Shown piece after piece: positions 15,018 to 29,086 of a DNA stretch of 64,000 bases. Position 1 is the stretch's first letter; each line of letters begins with the position of its first letter. This DNA is from Rhodovulum strictum (lineage in GTDB: Bacteria; Pseudomonadota; Alphaproteobacteria; Rhodobacterales; Rhodobacteraceae). Location: the NCBI RefSeq assembly GCF_009649175.1, contig NZ_WJPO01000007.1, positions 1-64,000 of the forward strand. The letters are read 5' to 3'. The notes under the pieces were generated by a model. The model was not told where the DNA came from, did no database searches, and saw only the letters and a list, made by a program, of their open reading frames with translations. The position numbers and the translations under genes are program-made.

Positions 15018-16528
15018 CTTGCTGTCCTTCTGAACAGGTCGGCATGGGTCTTGCGCAACTCGGCCTTCTGCACCTTGCCCATGGCGTTGCGCGGCAGTTC
15101 GGGCAGGACGACATATTCCCGGGGCTGCTTGTAGCGCGCAAGCCTTTCGGACAGCGCCGCCCGGATCGCGCCCGGGTCCGGCCCCGCCCCGGCCGCGGCC
15201 AGCACGGCCACCACCGCCTCGCCCAGATCGGGATGGGGCAGGCCGATCACCGCGCTTTCCAGAACGCCCGGCATCTCGTCCAGCACCAGTTCGACCTCCT
15301 TGGGATAGACGTTGTAGCCGCCCGAGATGATCAGATCCTTGGCCCGGCCCACGATGGTCACATAGCCCTGATCGTCGATCACGCCCAGATCGCCGGTGAT
15401 GAAGTAACCGTCCGGGCGGAACTCGGCCGCGGTCTTTTCGGGCATCTGCCAATAGCCCTGGAACACGTTCGGCCCGCGCACCTCGATCATGCCGGTCTCG
15501 CCCGGCGCCAGTTCCGCCCCGGTCTCCGGGTCCACGATCCGCAGATCGACATCCGGCAGCGCCAGCCCCACCGTCCCGGCCCGCCGCGCACCGTCGCAGG
15601 GGTTCGAGGTCAGCATGTTGGTTTCGGTCATCCCGTAGCGTTCCAGGATCGCATGGCCCGTGCGCTCGGCCCAGGCATGATGGGTTTCCGCCAGCAGCGG
15701 GGCCGAGCCCGACACGAACAGCCGCATATGCCCGACCGTTCCGCGCCCCAGCCGCGGATCGTCCAGCAACCGGGTGTAGAAGGTCGGAACGCCCATCATC
15801 GCCGTTGCCCGCGGCAGCAGCGCGAAAACCTGCTCGATGTCGAATTTCGGCAGAAAGATCATCTGCCCGCCCGACAGCAGCACCACGTTGCTGGCCACGA
15901 ACAGCCCATGGGTGTGAAAGATCGGCAGGGCATGCAGCAGCACATCGGCTTCGGTGAACCGCCACAGGTCGACCAGCGTGCGCGCGTTCGACAACAGGTT
16001 GCGATGGCTCATCATCGCGCCCTTGGACCGCCCCGTGGTGCCCGAGGTATATAGCAGCGCCGCCAGATCCTCCGGCCCGCGCGGCTCGGGCGTCAGGCTG
16101 TCGGGCCCGGCATCCGCCAGCGCATCGAAACTGCCGCCCGGCCCCAGGCTTTCCAGCCGCAGGCCCAGCCGTTCGGCCAGCGGGGTCAGCGCCGCCACCC
16201 GGTCGGGATCGACCAGCAGCAGCCGGGCGCCGCAATCGGTGACGAAATATTCCAGCTCATCCGCCGTATAGGCCGGGTTCAGCGGCAGGAAGACCGCCCC
16301 CGTCGCCACCGCGGCCCCATAACAGGCCAGCATCTGCGGTGTCTTGGACGCCTGCACCGCGATCCGCTCGCCCGCCGCAAGGCCCATGGCCCGCAGCGCA
16401 TTGCCGAACCGCGCGATCATCCGGTGAAACCCGTCCGCACTGACCGCGCTGCCATCGGGCAGGATCAGAAAGGGCCGCTCCTGCCCCGCAAGCGGGGCGA
16501 ACAGCGCATCGTAAAGCGGGTTGGCCAT
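15014..16528 (-). CDS. matB: Malonyl-CoA synthetase
   Basis: Adenylate-forming acyl-CoA ligase, 504 residues, the length of characterised MatB proteins. The P-loop is TSGTTGRSKG (161-170). The region ERYGMTETNMLTSNPCDGARRAGTVG is the MatB-type A5 motif. YFITGDLG and KDLIISGGYNVYPKEVE are the hinge motifs, and NAMGKVQKAELR carries the C-terminal catalytic lysine. The ATG at 16528 has a strong AGGAGGT. MatB makes malonyl-CoA from malonate, ATP and CoA, usually for malonate use or detoxification. No malonyl-CoA decarboxylase (matA) is adjacent; a quinone oxidoreductase follows instead. Other short-chain acids are possible substrates. Confidence 0.83.
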   Translation of the reverse strand: MANPLYDALFAPLAGQERPFLILPDGSAVSADGFHRMIARFGNALRAMGLAAGERIAVQASKTPQMLACYGAAVATGAVFLPLNPAYTADELEYFVTDCGARLLLVDPDRVAALTPLAERLGLRLESLGPGGSFDALADAGPDSLTPEPRGPEDLAALLYTSGTTGRSKGAMMSHRNLLSNARTLVDLWRFTEADVLLHALPIFHTHGLFVASNVVLLSGGQMIFLPKFDIEQVFALLPRATAMMGVPTFYTRLLDDPRLGRGTVGHMRLFVSGSAPLLAETHHAWAERTGHAILERYGMTETNMLTSNPCDGARRAGTVGLALPDVDLRIVDPETGAELAPGETGMIEVRGPNVFQGYWQMPEKTAAEFRPDGYFITGDLGVIDDQGYVTIVGRAKDLIISGGYNVYPKEVELVLDEMPGVLESAVIGLPHPDLGEAVVAVLAAAGAGPDPGAIRAALSERLARYKQPREYVVLPELPRNAMGKVQKAELRKTHADLFRRTAR

Positions 16529-16947
16529 CGGTCGGACCTCCTGTTCGGGCGGCGCAGACCTGCCGCCCCCGTCTGTTGAGCAGGATCGGCCCGCATCGGC
16601 AAGAGCACGAACAGGTTCCCCCGGATGCGCCCCTTGCCCTGTCGGCCCGGAATCGCAGGATCCGTGGGTCGCCATGGCCGCGCCCGGTATCAACGGGCCT
16701 GTGCATCAAATCCGCAGGAACTGTCCGTTTCGCGGATCACATGCGGGGGTGCCATCTGCGGCCCTTTCGGACCCCCCTTTCCCCCGTCCGAAAAGACCCT
16801 GTTCCGCCCCGAAGCGCAGGAAACCGGCCCTCCGCGCGCCCGGCAAACGCCTTGCCCGCGCAATCAAATGGTCGTTTACCGATGACACATCAAACTGAAA
16901 ACGCCCCTGCCCTGCCCCGCTACCCACCGGGACAGCGCCGCAAAAAC
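16529..16947. other. Gene-free stretch upstream of matB
   Basis: No credible coding sequence. It contains the matB ribosome-binding site and an inverted repeat, TTTCGGAC at 16765-16772 with GTCCGAAA at 16786-16793 around a pyrimidine-rich 13-base spacer. The repeat may be an operator or hairpin for matB, since no T-tract follows on the minus strand. The segment 16861-16915 is locally richer in A and T and could hold a promoter, but I cannot place one. Confidence 0.4.
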
Positions 16948-16963
16948 CTTCCCCGCGGGGAAG
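16948..16963. repeat. parS: Partition palindrome, copy 1 (parS-like)
   Basis: Perfect 16-bp palindrome CTTCCCCGCGGGGAAG, 10 bases downstream of the parB stop. One of five copies between 16.9 and 19.5 kb; the motif was not noticed elsewhere in the window. Its restriction to the par/rep module supports a ParB binding (centromere) role. Confidence 0.7.
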
Positions 16964-16972
16964 ATTCCGGCC

Positions 16973-18094
16973 CTACCCGTCCAGTTGGTCCAGCATCTGG
17001 CGCACCGCCTGTTCCAGCCGCCGCCGGTCGATGGTGGTAAAGTCGCGGTCCAGCCGGATCTCCAGCTTGCCGACCCCGGCCACGCATTTGGCCCGCCCCT
17101 CGCGCCGGTCGAACTGAAAGCTCGCCCTGGCCTTTGCGGGTTTCTCGGGCCGGGTCGCGGGCCGGGCCGCGCCGGGCTCGTCCCAGCCCTGATCCGGCTC
17201 GGGCTCGCCCGCAAAGCGGCGCAGCACGCCCAGTTCATCCGCCAGCGAGCGGTTGTCCCAATCCCTGAGTTCGGCCCGGATCGCGCCGGACAGCCCCTCG
17301 ACCTCTTCCAGCTTGCGGGCCAGCGTCAGCCCCAGCGCACGCGGGATGCCCTGCGGATAGGTCAGGTCTTCGCCAAGCGCCTCGACCACCGTCATGAAGC
17401 CGCGGATATAGCTGCGCTTCTGGTAGCCCGCCGACTTGAACAGCACCGCGACGGCCTTTTCCGGGTCGCTGACCGCGGTACCCGGATCGGCGGCATAGTC
17501 GATCGCCAGCATGGCCATCTCGGCGAACGAGATATCCTTGCGCACCAGGTTCTCGTCGACCATCTTGCGATAGAGCGCCTCCAGATCCTCGCCGGGCTGG
17601 GTGACGGCAGCCGGGATGGTGGCATAGCGGGCGGTATCCCCTGTCTCCTCCAGAAGCTCGCGATAGGCCGCAAGCCGGCGATAACCCTGGATCAGTTCGT
17701 AGCGGCCATCCTCGCGCGATTCCAGCCGGATCGGGTTCGACAGGCCCAGTTCCGCAATCGACGCCTTGAGGTCGGCAAGCTCGGCATCCGGCCCCGCCTT
17801 GCGGTCGCGCACCAGCTTGGACATCTCGACCAGCTCCAGCGGCACCAGCTCGATGACCAGCCCAAGCCGCTTCAGCCGGACATGTTCATGCGCCAGCGCG
17901 TCGTTCTCGGCGCGGATCTGCGACTCGATTTCCTGCCGCTCCAGGGTCGAGGTGACGGTCTCGGAAATGGCGGTGGCCATCGGCCCGCGCCGGGCCGGGG
18001 CATCGCCGACCTTCCCCGCGGGGAAGGTTTCGGCGCCATCGGCGATGCTGCCCTCGGGCAGGTCGATGTCGAACATGCGGCGTTTCCTGCTCAT
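16973..18094 (-). CDS. parB: ParB/RepB-type plasmid partition protein
   Basis: Centromere-binding partner of ParA, 373 residues. The ParB/Srx-like domain contains VRDRKAGPDAELADLKASIAELG, NPIRLESREDGRYELIQGYRRLAAYREL and the MVDENLVRKDISFAEMAMLAIDY block, the analogue of the 'ENiqReDLnp' box. An HTH-like segment follows. The start at 18094 has GAGGGGGCCGCG upstream that overlaps the parA stop; the genes are 10 bp apart. Near the N-terminus (23-29) the palindromic parS-like element is translated as TFPAGKV, in an otherwise low-complexity region. Together with parA and the initiator at 19883 it defines a replicon. Confidence 0.87.
   Translation of the reverse strand: MSRKRRMFDIDLPEGSIADGAETFPAGKVGDAPARRGPMATAISETVTSTLERQEIESQIRAENDALAHEHVRLKRLGLVIELVPLELVEMSKLVRDRKAGPDAELADLKASIAELGLSNPIRLESREDGRYELIQGYRRLAAYRELLEETGDTARYATIPAAVTQPGEDLEALYRKMVDENLVRKDISFAEMAMLAIDYAADPGTAVSDPEKAVAVLFKSAGYQKRSYIRGFMTVVEALGEDLTYPQGIPRALGLTLARKLEEVEGLSGAIRAELRDWDNRSLADELGVLRRFAGEPEPDQGWDEPGAARPATRPEKPAKARASFQFDRREGRAKCVAGVGKLEIRLDRDFTTIDRRRLEQAVRQMLDQLDG
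18009..18028. repeat. parS: Partition palindrome, copy 2, inside parB
   Basis: 20-bp perfect palindrome with the shared 16-bp core at 18011-18026 plus AC/GT. It lies in frame within the parB N-terminal coding region and encodes TFPAGKV, the same heptapeptide as the copy inside parA. A site within the gene that is kept palindromic at every base argues for DNA-level selection. Confidence 0.72.
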
Positions 18095-18104
18095 CGCGGC
18101 CCCC

Positions 18105-19397
18105 TCAGATCCGGTCCCAGGCAGCCAGCATGCTGCCCCTGAATTCCTCATAGGCGCGGTCGAAACTGGCCCGCGCCCGGCGCCATGTCTCGCGCGTCAT
18201 CTCGCGATAGTCGATCTCGTATACCGACGAGAGAAAGCGGCCCGACTGCTCGACCGCGCGCGTCATCTCGATCGGATGCTCGGCGACATGCGGGCCAAAG
18301 ACCTTGCGAAAGGCGTCGAACATCGCGCGGTGCAGGTCGTTGCCCGGCTCGTAGCGGGTCATCAGAAAGCGGATCTCGGCAAAGCTCTTGGGCAGCGAAA
18401 CCTTCCCCGCGGGGAAGGTCGGACCGAAACCCGACAGATCCTCCAGCGCCTCGGCCAACTGCCCGATGAAGCTGGTGGTCGAGTCGTATTCCCAATAGCC
18501 GGGGCCCGACGGGATATAGAGCATGTCGGCGGCAAAGACCGCGTTCATCGACTGATAGCCGATGGCGGGCGGGCAGTCGAACAGCACCAAGTCGTAATCG
18601 TCGTCGCCCAGCCCGTCCAGATAGCGCGACACGGCGGCAAAGAACGACCATTCCGGGTTCAGGTGGCGATACTGCGCGCTGGCGAACTCGACAAAGGCGG
18701 CATTGGCACAGGAGGGCACGATGTCGATCGTGGACCAGGCCGTGGGCTTGATGAAGTCGCCATGCCGCAACTCGCCCAGACCCAGATCGCGGATCGAGGC
18801 CGGGATCTGGCGGCGGGGCAGGGCGGTGCCGCTGGCCGCCCCCGTGACGGCGGTGTTCATCCGGTCCGTCTCGCGGATCAGGTCGCGGGCCATGATGCCC
18901 CAGACGGTGTAATCCTCGGCCACGTCGGTCAGGCCCATGGAATGGCTCAGCGTCGCCTGCGGATCGAAATCGACCAGCAGCACCCGATAGCCATCCAGCG
19001 CCGCGGCATGGGCGAAATGCAGCGCCACCGTCGACTTGCCCGCCCCGCCCTTGAAGTTCGCGATGGCCGCCCGGAACGCCCGCTTGCCCGCCGGGCGGGG
19101 GGGCATCAGGGTCTTGCGGTTGATCTTCATCTTGCGGCGCAGCGCGTTGATCTCGTCGAGACTGAACCAGCGCTGCCGCCCGTCCGGCTCGACTTCCCCG
19201 CCGGGAAGGTCGGGCTCGGCCGCCAGCCGACCGCGGAAGGTGGACTGGTTGATGCGGAAGATCAGTTCCGCCACCTCCCAGGAGGAGAACCGGCGCAGGG
19301 TCTTCTGGTTCTCGGGGCTGAAGGTCTGCTGCCGGATCCAGCCCTGCATCTTGAGCGACTGGGCCTGCAATCGCGTCAGATCCTCATGTGTGTACAT
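18105..19397 (-). CDS. parA: ParA/RepA-type plasmid partition ATPase
   Basis: Walker-type partition ATPase, 430 residues. The N-terminal ~100 residues form a helix-turn-helix extension (THEDLTRLQAQSLKM, FSSWEVAELIFRINQSTFRG) as in autoregulatory ParA proteins. The deviant Walker A is FKGGAGKST (115-123), followed by VLLVDFDPQATLSHSMG and the Walker B region LVLFDCPPAIGYQSMNA. The start at 19397 has AGAGGCGAGT upstream. Two palindromic elements fall in the coding sequence: one encodes TFPAGKV at 326-332, an imperfect one DLPGGEV near 63-69. First gene of the parAB operon, with another palindrome about 90 bp upstream, consistent with autoregulation or centromere function. Confidence 0.9.
   Translation of the reverse strand: MYTHEDLTRLQAQSLKMQGWIRQQTFSPENQKTLRRFSSWEVAELIFRINQSTFRGRLAAEPDLPGGEVEPDGRQRWFSLDEINALRRKMKINRKTLMPPRPAGKRAFRAAIANFKGGAGKSTVALHFAHAAALDGYRVLLVDFDPQATLSHSMGLTDVAEDYTVWGIMARDLIRETDRMNTAVTGAASGTALPRRQIPASIRDLGLGELRHGDFIKPTAWSTIDIVPSCANAAFVEFASAQYRHLNPEWSFFAAVSRYLDGLGDDDYDLVLFDCPPAIGYQSMNAVFAADMLYIPSGPGYWEYDSTTSFIGQLAEALEDLSGFGPTFPAGKVSLPKSFAEIRFLMTRYEPGNDLHRAMFDAFRKVFGPHVAEHPIEMTRAVEQSGRFLSSVYEIDYREMTRETWRRARASFDRAYEEFRGSMLAAWDRI
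18400..18419. repeat. parS: Partition palindrome, copy 3, inside parA
   Basis: 20-bp perfect palindrome identical to copy 2, with AC/GT flanking the 16-bp core. In the parA frame it reads TFPAGKV, inserted between a helix ending LEDLSGFGP and a segment starting SLPKSF. Confidence 0.72.
19193..19208. repeat. parS: Partition palindrome, copy 4, degenerate, inside parA
   Basis: CTTCCCCGCCGGGAAG: the six outer bases of each arm are conserved and complementary, but the centre carries a mismatch. It lies in the 5' part of parA and encodes part of DLPGGEV. Likely a diverged copy of the same element. Confidence 0.55.
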
Positions 19398-19485
19398 ACT
19401 CGCCTCTTTGGAACGTAAATTCTTGCCTGTTTCCCAAATACGCCGAACTTGCCACGAATGCAAAACCGAAGTTATCATCGGATCA

Positions 19486-19507
19486 GATCTTCCCCGCGGG
19501 GAAGATC
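19486..19507. repeat. parS: Partition palindrome, copy 5, upstream of parA
   Basis: 22-bp perfect palindrome: the shared 16-bp core extended by GAT and ATC on either side. It is the longest copy and sits about 90 bp upstream of the parA start, where binding could also regulate the parAB promoter. Confidence 0.72.
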
Positions 19508-19582
19508 CGGCCCTGCGGCAAGGGGGATCGGCCCGAATCGCCCGGGGGGAGGGCAGGGGGGGGCGCCTCGGTCCAAGGCGGG

Positions 19583-19632
19583 CATATTGGGGGACAGATG
19601 GCTTGCCCCCACCGCATGTTGGGGGGACATTT
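19583..19632. repeat. Iteron-like direct repeats
   Basis: CATATTGGGGGACAGAT at 19583 and CATGTTGGGGGGACATTT at 19615 share CAT-R-TTGGGGG-ACA. The 32-base offset is close to three helical turns, so both would face the same side of the DNA. They lie 250-300 bp upstream of the replication initiator gene, where iterons would be expected. With two copies the case is modest. Confidence 0.4.
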
Positions 19633-19882
19633 CCTGCGGAATGGGGGTCACCCTATGCGACCCCCTTTACCATTGATACCCTTTTCCTCCGGAAAGGAAT
19701 TGGATCGGGGAACCGCCCCCAAGCCAGTGCCCTTGACAGAATCGCAAAGGCGGACGCTAATGACCGGCATGGAGCGAAGAGCGTTGAGTATCGGCGCCGC
19801 GCCCGCCAAGAGCCGGATCACGGCCAGCAAACCCGAGGCAGGCCCCGACCGGAACGCGGACGGGGATGGATAGGAGAGAGAC

Positions 19883-20563
19883 ATGCAGCTTGCCCGGCCC
19901 GTCGGGCGCGAGGCCGCATCGCGCAAGTACGACATCCTGTCGGCCCTGATGGCGTTCGGACTGTCGCAGGACAAGCATGTGCAGCGGCAGGTGCTGCGGG
20001 TCATGGCGCTGATCACCACGCGCTACAACTGGCAGCGCGACGAGCTGACGATGGGGCAGGGAGAAATCGCGCGGCTGTGGTCGGTGGACGAGCGCACGGT
20101 AAAGCGCGAGATGGCGCGGCTGCGGGCGCGGGGCTGGCTGGTGCTGAAACGGCAGGGCGCGCGCGGGCGGGTCAGCACCTATGGGATGGACCTGAACCGC
20201 ATGCTGGATGACACGCGCCCGGCCTGGCCGCTGATCGGCGAGGATTTCATGGCGCGGCTGGACCCGGCGGCCGCGGCGGGGCAGGGGGGGTCGAACGTGG
20301 TGCCGCTGCGCGCCGTGCCCGTGCCGATGGCGGATGGCTCTGTCTGGGCGGCGGCGCAGGCCTGGCTGCATGCCGAGGATCCGGCAACCTATGGCGCCTG
20401 GTTCCATGCGCTGAGCGATGCGGGGCTGGAGGCCAATGCCCTGACCCTGGCCGCGCCCACGCGGTTTCACGCAAGCTATGTCGCCACGAACCTCAAGGAA
20501 AAGCTGCTGTCGGCGCTGCGCCGGGTCGATCCCAGCGTCAGGGATGTGCGCATCGTCGGCTGA
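19883..20563 (+). CDS. DnaA-like plasmid replication initiator
   Basis: 226 residues. The N-terminal part is a winged-helix/HTH domain (VLRVMALITTRYNWQRDELTM, GEIARLWSVDERTVKREMARL, GRVSTYGMDLNRML). The C-terminal ~75 residues resemble domain I of DnaA (WAAAQAWLHAEDPATYGAWF, LTLAAPTRFHASYVATNLKEKL, DPSVRDVRIVG). This architecture is that of the 'DnaA-like' initiators known from plasmids of the Roseobacter group. A good AGGAGAGAG precedes the ATG. It is divergent from parAB across the 485-bp presumed origin, the expected layout of such replicons. No other replication gene is seen in the window. Confidence 0.8.
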   Translation: MQLARPVGREAASRKYDILSALMAFGLSQDKHVQRQVLRVMALITTRYNWQRDELTMGQGEIARLWSVDERTVKREMARLRARGWLVLKRQGARGRVSTYGMDLNRMLDDTRPAWPLIGEDFMARLDPAAAAGQGGSNVVPLRAVPVPMADGSVWAAAQAWLHAEDPATYGAWFHALSDAGLEANALTLAAPTRFHASYVATNLKEKLLSALRRVDPSVRDVRIVG

Positions 20564-20578
20564 CGGCCCGCGGCTGCG

Positions 20579-22201
20579 TCACGGTGCCGGATCGCCCGGG
20601 ACAGGGCGGAGGGCCAGAAGGGTGGTTCCGGCTGCGCTGGCCAGAGGGTCAAGGCCCGGGCGGTCGGGGGCGGTTCCGCCGATCAGCAGGACATGGGTGA
20701 AATGGTCCTGCCAGCCGGGAACGAAGGCCCAGATCTCGCGCATTGGCGCGCTGAAGCGGTCGGGCGGCAGGTCGAGCAGGTGGAGCGGCACCGCAACGGG
20801 CTGGGCGGCGGACAGGGCCTGCCATTCGGGGGCAAGGGCCAGGCGATGCGAGCCGCCGACAAAGAGCGTCGGCACGAAGGCCCCGGCAAGGGGCACCAGA
20901 TAGGCCGCGCTGTGGAAATGCCGCGTGGTCAGGGGGGCGCGGCTTGCGATCACGGGCAGCACCCGGGCCCCGGCGGGCAGGTTTGCCGCCACGGCGGCGA
21001 TGGAGGCGATCTCGGCCGAATAGGCGCGGGCCGCGCGGTCCAGCACATGCGCGCGCAGCGCGATGACGGCGAGCAGCGCCAGCATCAGCCCGCCCGCCAG
21101 CCGGTTCGACGGTGGGCGGGCGCCAGGGATCGGGCGCAGGTCGGTGGCCGCGATCAGCAGCCCGAGCAGCAGGACGGGATAGCGCAGATGGGTGAAATGG
21201 ACCCCCGACAACTGGACCGGCATCAGCAAGGTGACCAGCCCCAGCAGCAGAAGCGGCAGCCGCATCCCGGCGGCCAGCCGGATCGACAGCCCGTTGCGCC
21301 GCGCCAGCGCCCAGAGCAGGGGAAGGGCGGCCAGAAACAGCACCGCCTGCCCGGCAAGGGGGTGCAGCAACGCGCCCCCGCCCGGGGTGGAGCCGAAGGG
21401 CGACAGCAGGAGTTGCAGACGTTCGGACAGGGGGCCGAACTGCGTGGCGCTGCCGTAACCCGGCGCCGGGGCGGTGACGCCGATCAGCACATGCGCAAGG
21501 CAGATCGTGCAGATTGCCACAAGGCCGGGCCAGTCCACCGCGCGAAGATCGGGGCGCAGGCCGGGACGCCATGCGCGCCCGGCCTCGTAGCCGATGACCA
21601 GAGCCGCATAGGCGAGCAGCACCAGCACATGGCCCAGATAAAGCAGCGCCACCACCGCCAGCGTCAGGGCCAGACGCAGCGCGGGCGCGGCGCCGCGGGT
21701 GGCGATCCACAGGGCAAGGCCGAGGATGCCGAAGGGCAGGGTGACGGCGTAATTCTCGAACCCCCAGAGGATGTTGGCGTTATGGACCAGCAGTCCGGCC
21801 AGCAGCGGCCAGGCCGACCAGCGGCCATGCAGCACCCGGTGCAGCACCATGACCGCCCCCATGAAGCCGACCATCGCGAAGCCCATCGCCCAATGCGAGA
21901 AGGCGACCGCATCCGCCGCCGAGACGGGCGCGACCAGCATCCGCAGCCGCCAGGCCAGATCGACGGCGGCATTCGTGGCCGGACCGTCCAGCAGCCCGTC
22001 CCGAAGGATGAAATAGTCGGCCAGCGCCCCATCGGTCCCGGCCGCAAGATGGCGCCGGGCGATGTGGTTGGGCAGATCCTCGAAGGGCAGGAACGGGTTC
22101 AACACAAGCGGCAGCACGATCAGCGCCGCGGTCGCCAGCGTCAGCGCCGCAAGCCAGGGGACAGGGCGGAAGGCCGCGGCGTCAGGGGCCGGGCTTTGCA
22201 T
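20579..22201 (-). CDS. Polytopic membrane protein, candidate GtrS/GT-C-type glycosyltransferase
   Basis: 540 residues with about ten or more hydrophobic helices, e.g. WLAALTLATAALIVLPLVL, MGFAMVGFMGAVMVLH, LALTLAVVALLYLGHVLVLLAY and LPLLLLGLVTLLMPV. An acidic pair in the first periplasmic loop (PFLPFEDLPNHIARRHLA) resembles the catalytic loop of GT-C transferases, and a large soluble C-terminal domain follows. It overlaps the end of the GtrB-like gene by 20 bp, the position normally held by the serotype-specific GtrS transferase. That role is inference; the family is not recognised with certainty. Confidence 0.6.
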   Translation of the reverse strand: MQSPAPDAAAFRPVPWLAALTLATAALIVLPLVLNPFLPFEDLPNHIARRHLAAGTDGALADYFILRDGLLDGPATNAAVDLAWRLRMLVAPVSAADAVAFSHWAMGFAMVGFMGAVMVLHRVLHGRWSAWPLLAGLLVHNANILWGFENYAVTLPFGILGLALWIATRGAAPALRLALTLAVVALLYLGHVLVLLAYAALVIGYEAGRAWRPGLRPDLRAVDWPGLVAICTICLAHVLIGVTAPAPGYGSATQFGPLSERLQLLLSPFGSTPGGGALLHPLAGQAVLFLAALPLLWALARRNGLSIRLAAGMRLPLLLLGLVTLLMPVQLSGVHFTHLRYPVLLLGLLIAATDLRPIPGARPPSNRLAGGLMLALLAVIALRAHVLDRAARAYSAEIASIAAVAANLPAGARVLPVIASRAPLTTRHFHSAAYLVPLAGAFVPTLFVGGSHRLALAPEWQALSAAQPVAVPLHLLDLPPDRFSAPMREIWAFVPGWQDHFTHVLLIGGTAPDRPGLDPLASAAGTTLLALRPVPGDPAP

Positions 22202-28247: not shown

Positions 28248-29086
28248 TTGCCCCCCAGCCTGAGCAGCTTGAACCCCAGCGCTTGGCCCCAGTGCAGATG
28301 CACGCCCACGCAGCGAAAGCCGCCCCGGTCATAGGCGCGCATCCCGGCGCGGAAGGTGTCGAACGCCGCGCGATAGCCGGGGTCGGCCGCGAAGGATTGC
28401 ATCATCGGGTTGAGCAGCACGAAGACCCCGGTGGTCGCGATGCGGCACATCTCGTCCACCACGGCAAGCCAGTGGCCGGGATGGCAGTAATGCTCGATCG
28501 CCTGAAGGCAGAGGACATAATCCTGGCTGCCGCTGTCCAGCGGATAGGGCAGGTGCCCGGCATCGAACAGCGCCATCGGCAGCCCGATGCTGTCGGTGAT
28601 CGGGCGATAGGGCCAGTCGGCAATCTGCCCGTCCGCCGGGATCGGGATGCCGTAATCGTCGATGCGGCGCGAAAAGCCCGGATCGTTCAGCGCGCGCAGG
28701 GCCGAACGGCCGCCATCCTCGCTGCCATTGACCATGTTGGCGAAGTCATTGCCCAGAACCGCGTGGCCGTAATGGCGCAGCACTTCCAGCATGGCGCCAT
28801 GCCCGGTCGAGAGTTCGAACACGCGCCGGGGCGGCCCGCCCATCAGTTCGGGCAGGTAAAGCTGGATGCGCCGGACGGCCCGGACAAGGTTCCTGCGCCG
28901 CTGAAGGTATTTTCGTTGCGGCGGGCGGCGGTTGCCGGACCATGCCCCCTCGGCAAGGGGGTAGTCGCGCGGCATCGGCAGGTCGGGCAGGGCGAAATGG
29001 CTGCCGATATCGGCGATCCGCAGCGCCCTGACACAGGCGCGGCGCAGCGTTTCGGGGTCGTCCGTGTCGGACGCCGTCTGTCTCAT
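28241..29086 (-). CDS. SAM-dependent methyltransferase-like protein
   Basis: 281 residues. RVFELSTGHGAMLEVLRHYG serves as motif I with a variant ELSTGHG loop, followed by AVLGNDFANM, and later DYVLCLQAIEHYCHPGHWLAVVDEMCRIA, typical of the post-II/III region. The variant first loop leaves some doubt about SAM binding. It overlaps its upstream hydrolase gene by ATGA and the downstream sulfotransferase fusion by 7 bp, so all are likely made together. Confidence 0.7.
   Translation of the reverse strand: MRQTASDTDDPETLRRACVRALRIADIGSHFALPDLPMPRDYPLAEGAWSGNRRPPQRKYLQRRRNLVRAVRRIQLYLPELMGGPPRRVFELSTGHGAMLEVLRHYGHAVLGNDFANMVNGSEDGGRSALRALNDPGFSRRIDDYGIPIPADGQIADWPYRPITDSIGLPMALFDAGHLPYPLDSGSQDYVLCLQAIEHYCHPGHWLAVVDEMCRIATTGVFVLLNPMMQSFAADPGYRAAFDTFRAGMRAYDRGGFRCVGVHLHWGQALGFKLLRLGGKC

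Follow-up and report, generated by a model that had tools for sequence, protein, structure and literature searches.

Putative parS palindromes within the parA and parB genes of a DnaA-like replicon of Rhodobacterales

Five palindromes in a partition module of Rhodovulum strictum are, in our reading, putative parS sites of a ParABS system in a DnaA-like plasmid or chromid; selection would act on the DNA, and a loop of ParA would be its passenger. We put the probability of this reading at about 90%. Clustering of the sites, their palindromy, the agreement of coding with intergenic copies, the codon bias and the covariation with ParB residues are directly visible in the sequences compared here.

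The partition module and its replicon

The window, a stretch of 64 000 nucleotides, carries a parAB operon adjoined in divergent orientation by a gene for a replication initiator (Table 1). The parA product matched AAA_31 (E 2.7e-24), and its predicted fold resembles Vibrio ParA2 and plasmid ParA, in a model of only moderate confidence (mean pLDDT 69). The parB product scored 25.8 bits against ParB_N, slightly below the cut-off of 26.3; in a Foldseek search its model (mean pLDDT 81) matched ParB, Noc and KorB, the helix-turn-helix (HTH) being known from the model only. The initiator scored 24.8 bits against DnaA_N, just above the Pfam cut-off of 24.6, and matched no RepC model in NCBIfam, the sign of a repABC replicon that we looked for. 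It was 54.6% identical to the initiator of pGal_A255, a plasmid classed as DnaA-like-I in the available text of PMC4148982, which has the same gene order and the same initiator family as the window.

The DnaA_N match, the similarity to pGal_A255 and the gene order support what an earlier note on this DNA had proposed, a DnaA-like replicon with a ParA ATPase and a ParB-like protein. Its sequence places the module among the DnaA-like replicons of Rhodobacterales, with homology to published DnaA-like-I plasmids; no module-level difference from other replicons of this kind was seen. The contig carrying it has 155 341 bases, and a 40-60 base test found no overlap of the contig ends that would be a sign of circularity. 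G-rich near-repeats at 19582-19650 of the window (GCATATTGGGGG, GCATGTTGGGGG and AATGGGGG) are possible origin iterons.

Table 1. Features of the partition module in the window
Feature	Position	Strand	Remarks
parS-like palindrome downstream of parB	16948..16963	.	Exact copy; 9 bases past the parB stop
parB, 373 aa	16973..18094	-	ParB_N type; HTH from prediction; CTPase clamp assigned from the family alone
ParB residues 223-225 (G-Y-Q)	17420..17428	-	Start of the predicted recognition helix
parS-like palindrome within parB	18011..18026	.	Exact copy; ParB residues 23-29, TFPAGKV
parA, 430 aa	18105..19397	-	Deviant Walker A ATPase, KGGAGKS
parS-like palindrome within parA	18402..18417	.	Exact copy; ParA residues 327-333, TFPAGKV
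Degenerate palindrome within parA	19193..19208	.	1 mismatch, CTTCCCCGCCGGGAAG; residues 63-69, DLPGGEV
22-bp palindrome upstream of parA	19486..19507	.	Perfect; contains the exact 16-mer at 19489-19504
parA-initiator intergenic region, G-rich repeats	19508..19882	.	Candidate origin, by inference
DnaA-like replication initiator, 226 aa	19883..20563	+	DnaA_N domain at 154-213

Sets of homologous modules

Set 1 comprised 73 loci (72 with parA): that of the window, 12 plasmid loci and 60 genome loci, 2 of them from the same genus and 58 from the same family. Set 2 contained the 63 loci left of 80 after removal of 2 without full genes and 15 duplicates; together the sets hold 135 homologous modules with parA. 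Besides the window's own, 78 genomes of the family had a match, 20 of them outside set 1: 11 family loci, four more divergent ones (L146, L147, L148 and L159), L270, L271, G066, G050 and G264. The family loci, the four divergent loci, L270 and L271 were read apart from the sets as 17 further loci; G066 is an outgroup (L142), and G050 (the same as L046) and G264 (parB at the contig edge) were omitted. The nearest outgroup ParA proteins are L141-L145.

An initiator was found in 66 of the 73 set 1 loci, on the opposite strand every time; it was not found in L047, L088, L090, L092, L101, L111 and L136, among which the record of L047 begins at parA and has its initiator in L048. The parA and parB genes of set 1 overlap in 53 of 72 loci, are separated by 0-20 bases in 16 and by more than that in 3.

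Palindromic sites in the window and in the genome

A pattern scan of the window found four exact copies of CTTCCCCGCGGGGAAG and one copy with one mismatch, all in the par module. The scan bore out the earlier note, which had placed five sites here, three of them in coding DNA (one in parB, two in parA), and had the perfect intragenic copies encode TFPAGKV in both ParA and ParB; the degenerate copy is read in another frame. With up to three mismatches allowed, the window held a single further match, at 28340 (three mismatches); at this threshold 100 dinucleotide shuffles of the window gave 1.13 matches on average, and none reached six.

In the whole genome (3 825 097 bases in 97 contigs) exact copies numbered four, all in the module. 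Up to two mismatches gave 11 places, five in the module and six elsewhere; the six are at chance level, since a backward-read control pattern also gave six. The palindrome thus clusters at the module, a point that the note had proposed to check by a genome-wide search, and is not frequent elsewhere. The exact 16-mer is also present in four viral_contigs records (L253, L254, L255 and L256).

The 22-bp palindrome, whose 16-bp core starts 92 bases ahead of the parA start codon, is a putative parS and possibly also the operator of the par operon. At the other end, with GTTTTTGC after it on the parB strand, the copy downstream of parB may double as a terminator. One could go further and take all sites for ParB operators, with the upstream site and roadblocks in the coding sequence regulating the par operon and the centromere lying elsewhere or only partly here. 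A site about 90 bases upstream of parA fits such a role, and the upstream parS of repABC plasmids is described as regulatory in the available text of PMC9040568. In seven complete plasmids, however, 35 of 37 places (at most one mismatch) were in the module or up to 2 kb away (control, 0), and six of the seven had no copy beyond the module and its 2-kb surroundings, so that any centromere outside this region would have to use a different sequence. The roles of operator and centromere are compatible with each other. We consider the operator reading, with the centromere elsewhere or only in part at the module, unlikely.

Positions of the sites and their agreement within a replicon

We now follow the putative parS sites through the related modules. 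The ParA loop site, found in 121 of 134 replicons, was the most conserved of the array, a ranking that is not fully like with like for the intergenic sites because intergenic stretches differ in length. Up to 150 bases past parB a site was present in 97 of 131 replicons; 74 of 130 had one in the 300 bases ahead of parA. Within the genes, sites occurred in the N-terminal (69/134) and C-terminal (21/134) parts of ParB, in its residue-165 region (17/134) and in the codon-63 region of ParA (50/134); at least one coding site was present in 128 of 134 replicons, against 9 sites per 366 kb in control stretches. The centromere-like array over the par operon that the earlier note had suggested is supported by this clustering and by the palindromes of related modules.

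The ParB sites vary in place (about residues 17-23, 165 and 300-329). The one at residue 165 uses another frame and encodes LPRGE or VPRGE among the rows listed. In the ParB model, residues 8-25 and 305-320 have pLDDT <50 and residues 165-169 lie between a strand and a helix; the window's own parB copy (residues 23-29) sits in an N-terminal part without predicted structure.

Coding and intergenic copies of one replicon agree. The loop was at most one mismatch from its own intergenic palindrome in 59 of 65 set 1 replicons (shuffled mean 14.4) and in 44 of 53 set 2 replicons (shuffled mean 29.9); in neither set was this reached in 5000 shuffles, which ignore the relatedness of replicons. By this criterion 7 of 72 modules in set 1 and 10 of 63 in set 2 were without an intergenic palindrome. 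Loop type equalled intergenic type in 61 of 61 typed set 1 replicons (10 of 71 rows were untypable for the loop, for the intergenic sites or for both; L046 was excluded). A ParA tree made without the site columns, with many weakly supported branches, placed eight type changes for the loop and eight for the intergenic sites. Independent pairs on supported branches numbered 1 to 3 per type among the types listed, which does not suffice for a test. Relatedness makes the replicons non-independent: few supported branches separate the types.

ParB residues tracking the palindrome

In the ParB model a predicted helix (224-243) begins with residues 224 and 225. Among 266 ParB columns, residue 224 best explained bases 1-3 of the half-site; for bases 4-5 residue 225 came second by explained share (0.65), residue 174 being slightly higher (0.68). 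In the 122 palindromic loops, residue 224 paired with bases 1-3 as Y-CTT (93/93), R-TGT (18/18), P-TTT (5/5) and K-GTT (5/5), where one matching half-site per loop was enough. With bases 4-5, residue 225 paired as Q-CC (92/92) and T-AC (10/10); S at this position goes with AT, TT, AC or CC. On intergenic sites only, Y-CTT held in 43 of 44 replicons of set 1 and 42 of 44 of set 2, P-TTT in 4/5 and 1/1, and K-GTT in 1/1 and 3/3; the 18 replicons with R had TGT (10), CGT (7) or CCC (1). Residues 223-225 were readable in 11 of the 17 further loci; in every one of these the sites agreed, the first base being mixed in L264. The DnaA-like-I member pGal_A255, to which the window module is related, differs from it in palindrome type: its ParA-loop palindrome is of the TGTCCC type (7/8 pairs), and its ParB residues are GRQ.

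The ParB of L127 combines P with V, and its sites are TTTAC-like; in L082 (SYS) and L100 (SYT) the sites consist of one half of each type. We regard these replicons as likely intermediates of a specificity switch. The varying residues presumably correspond to residues 170-172 of Caulobacter ParB, a match by motif only, since profile alignments to solved ParB structures stopped short of the HTH.

Half-to-half pairing would likewise be conserved if the palindromes worked as RNA hairpins, that is, as terminators or attenuators of the operon, and the copy past parB is indeed followed by TTTTT. Hairpins, however, need neither identical letters across the sites of a replicon nor a tracking of ParB residues 224-225. 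TTTT follows only 20 of 91 sites located up to 30 bases past parB, a site also stands upstream of parA in the 74 of 130 replicons counted above, and in 16000-21000 of the window all Rfam families stayed below their gathering scores. A function as RNA hairpins is thus very unlikely.

Palindrome and peptide in the ParA loop

We counted a loop as palindromic if at least 7 of 8 pairs matched at ParA codons 327-332; this held for 64 of 72 loops in set 1 and 58 of 63 in set 2 (122 of 135 combined). In a sliding comparison of 1247 parA windows the loop ranked top, with 90% of 68 ungapped rows palindromic, and the second-ranked window reached only 46%. (The parA window 931 was likewise often palindromic, 46%.) Seven main half-site types were seen: CTTCCC, CTTACC, CTTATC, CTTTTC, TTTCCC, GTTCCC and TGTCCC. 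Nine of 13 left-over family loci (7/11 and 2/2) had a palindromic loop of a listed type; in the others the loop had six pairs (L262, L264), four pairs (L265) or seven pairs with different letters (L266).

The loop peptide varies with palindrome type (FPAGK, LPTGK, LSADK, FSAEK, VPAGT), and so it does with ParB residues 224/225. With YQ it is mainly FPAGK, FPTGK or FPAGN; with RQ, VPAGT (18/18); with YT, mainly LPTGK; with YS, mainly LSADK, FSAEK, FPAGK or LSAGK; with KQ, FPAGN (5/5); and with PQ, mainly FPAGK. Codon choice also follows the palindrome: where codon 328 encodes Leu (23 cases), TTA is used 22 times and CTC once, whereas TTA accounts for 1.4% of Leu codons in the rest of parA and parB; where codon 332 encodes Thr (18 cases), ACA is used 17 times, compared with 8.6% in the rest of these genes.

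Five pairs or fewer remained in 10 of the 135 loops (L040, L046, L090, L097, L101 and L121 in set 1; L185, L205, L210 and L217 in set 2), and the site is therefore not strictly required. The peptides of these ten are LPAGK (two), VPGCN (two), FARAG, QVPGV, VPTGG, LPPGT, VPGCH and VPGGT; only L040, with 4/8 pairs, clearly retains PAGK without the palindrome. Retention of TFPAGKV on non-palindromic DNA, the outcome that the earlier note named as speaking against it, was thus not what we saw: the peptide is mostly lost where the palindrome is broken. The note's suggestion that selection on DNA overrides the protein gains support, since the peptide changes with palindrome type and mostly drifts once the palindrome is gone.

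The reverse relation, with TFPAGKV a conserved protein motif and the palindrome its by-product, could draw on the presence of the peptide in both ParA and ParB, on P329 and G331 being common in the loop and on L040. It is less likely still than the hairpins: the peptide varies with palindrome type and mostly drifts where there is none, codons such as TTA are favoured in keeping with the palindrome, and ParB sites stand at differing places, one of them in another frame.

In the ParA model the loop (325-335) has pLDDT <50 and lies between a helix and a strand. Where the loop sits, the outgroup proteins L141-L145 carry sequence that is roughly as long but unrelated to it, so the site probably arose in a pre-existing variable loop; their loci have repeated palindromes at or past the end of parB. 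The insertion for which the note had proposed to search by alignment with relatives did not appear in comparison with these nearest outgroups; the loop is longer than in L146 and L158, which are more distant proteins. Least likely of all is several insertions of a mobile palindromic (REP-like) element, which the note had raised for the near-identical copies in two genes and which could also account for the varying places of the ParB copies: no exact copy is found outside the module, the outgroup comparison argues against insertion into the ParA loop, and the copies switch type together.

A further conserved stretch of parA was noticed. Positions 18816-18827 of the window (minus strand; ParA codons 191-194) read ACCGCCCTGCCC. 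The five ParA codons of strongest synonymous conservation are 192-194 together with the palindrome codons 329 and 330. The motif GCCCTGCCC, which is non-palindromic, had 101 matches in the 30-base bin around codons 191-194 of the 135 parA genes.

Exceptions

The loop does not always follow the other sites. Three divergent replicons have GTTCCC at their remaining sites, and their loop is CGTCCCTGCGGGGACG (L159), non-palindromic (L265) or a palindrome with other letters, GGTGCCTGCGGGCACC (L266).

The Donghicola replicons (L090, L205, L210 and L217) have lost the loop site, and their ParB is still GYQ. We rejected the view that they are devoid of any sites: three of the four genomes have CTTCCCC sites at a distance of 1.7-8 kb downstream of parB, the one match of the fourth genome being on another contig. 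The degenerate pattern gave 24, 11, 14 and 13 places versus 8, 7, 3 and 4 in controls, of which only the CTTCCCC places were counted. No initiator was found in the four genomes searched, an empty match that alone is no proof of absence. A RepB end and a RepC gene adjoin parAB in L090, and each of the four loci holds two copies of GTTGACAGCTGTCAAC, the repABC parS given in the available text of PMC9040568.

A possible mechanism

ParB binding, clamp loading, segregation and a part of the upstream site in self-regulation are what we infer from these comparisons. ParB dimers would bind each half-site via the HTH helix starting at residues 223-225; ParB would load at the parS sites, and ParA would move the ParB-DNA complex. 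Selection would keep the DNA letters, with the ParA loop and the ParB tails as protein passengers in flexible segments. When the specificity of ParB changed in a lineage, the sites would mostly change in concert, and with them the residues of the ParA loop. As for the location in genes, overlapping or nearly touching parA and parB would leave little spacer, and embedding may tie the centromere to its own ParAB.

One could speculate, at what we feel to be even odds, that the ParA-loop copy is the fixed main centromere site: two ParB residues would rewrite the centromere, the centromere would rewrite ParA, and motor, adaptor and centromere would form one cassette, hard to split under recombination. 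If so, the half-and-half sites of L082 and L100 would be switches caught under way.

Relation to known systems

In Bacillus subtilis a parS site lies inside the parB (spo0J) gene, so that parS in coding DNA is in itself no novelty. Conserved palindromes in the DnaA-like module of Rhodobacterales are reportedly mentioned in the abstract of Petersen et al. from 2011. Described here are the coding location of the sites, the way they change along with ParB residues, and the putative passenger peptide; in a limited literature search we found no description of a parS fixed inside parA of DnaA-like plasmids.

In repABC replicons, according to the available text of PMC9040568 and PMC5613091, a 16-bp palindromic parS, GTTNNCNGCNGNNAAC, is situated at the partition operon, with letters specific to compatibility groups; some copies occupy the 5' end of repB or ORFs that lie downstream of repC, and selection within coding sequence was proposed. 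The window module shares with these replicons palindromic sites at the partition operon, some within coding DNA. It differs from them in that they have a RepC initiator and a different palindrome, and the same available text describes no parS fixed inside repA. For chromosomal ParB-parS and Noc-NBS, specificity comes from residues of the DNA-binding interface, and switches have been reconstructed (PMC7383237, available text); in Caulobacter ParB the specificity residues are 173, 179, 184 and 201, and G170, K171 and S172 are conserved. ParB of the window family varies at the start of the recognition helix, in contrast to these Caulobacter specificity residues.

The seven main centromere types with their matching ParB residues make a natural series, in which the evolution of partition specificity and compatibility is testable by two-residue swaps, and compatibility types of a common plasmid family may become predictable from sequence. 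The ParA loop is a clear candidate case of a DNA site inside a gene dictating the protein sequence.

Two relatives of the module, L092 (4.15-Mb contig) and L114 (5.56-Mb contig), are on chromosome-sized contigs and are possibly integrated replicons. The host genome of the window also holds a second pair of partition genes, which differs in type (L158, at G000:C38).
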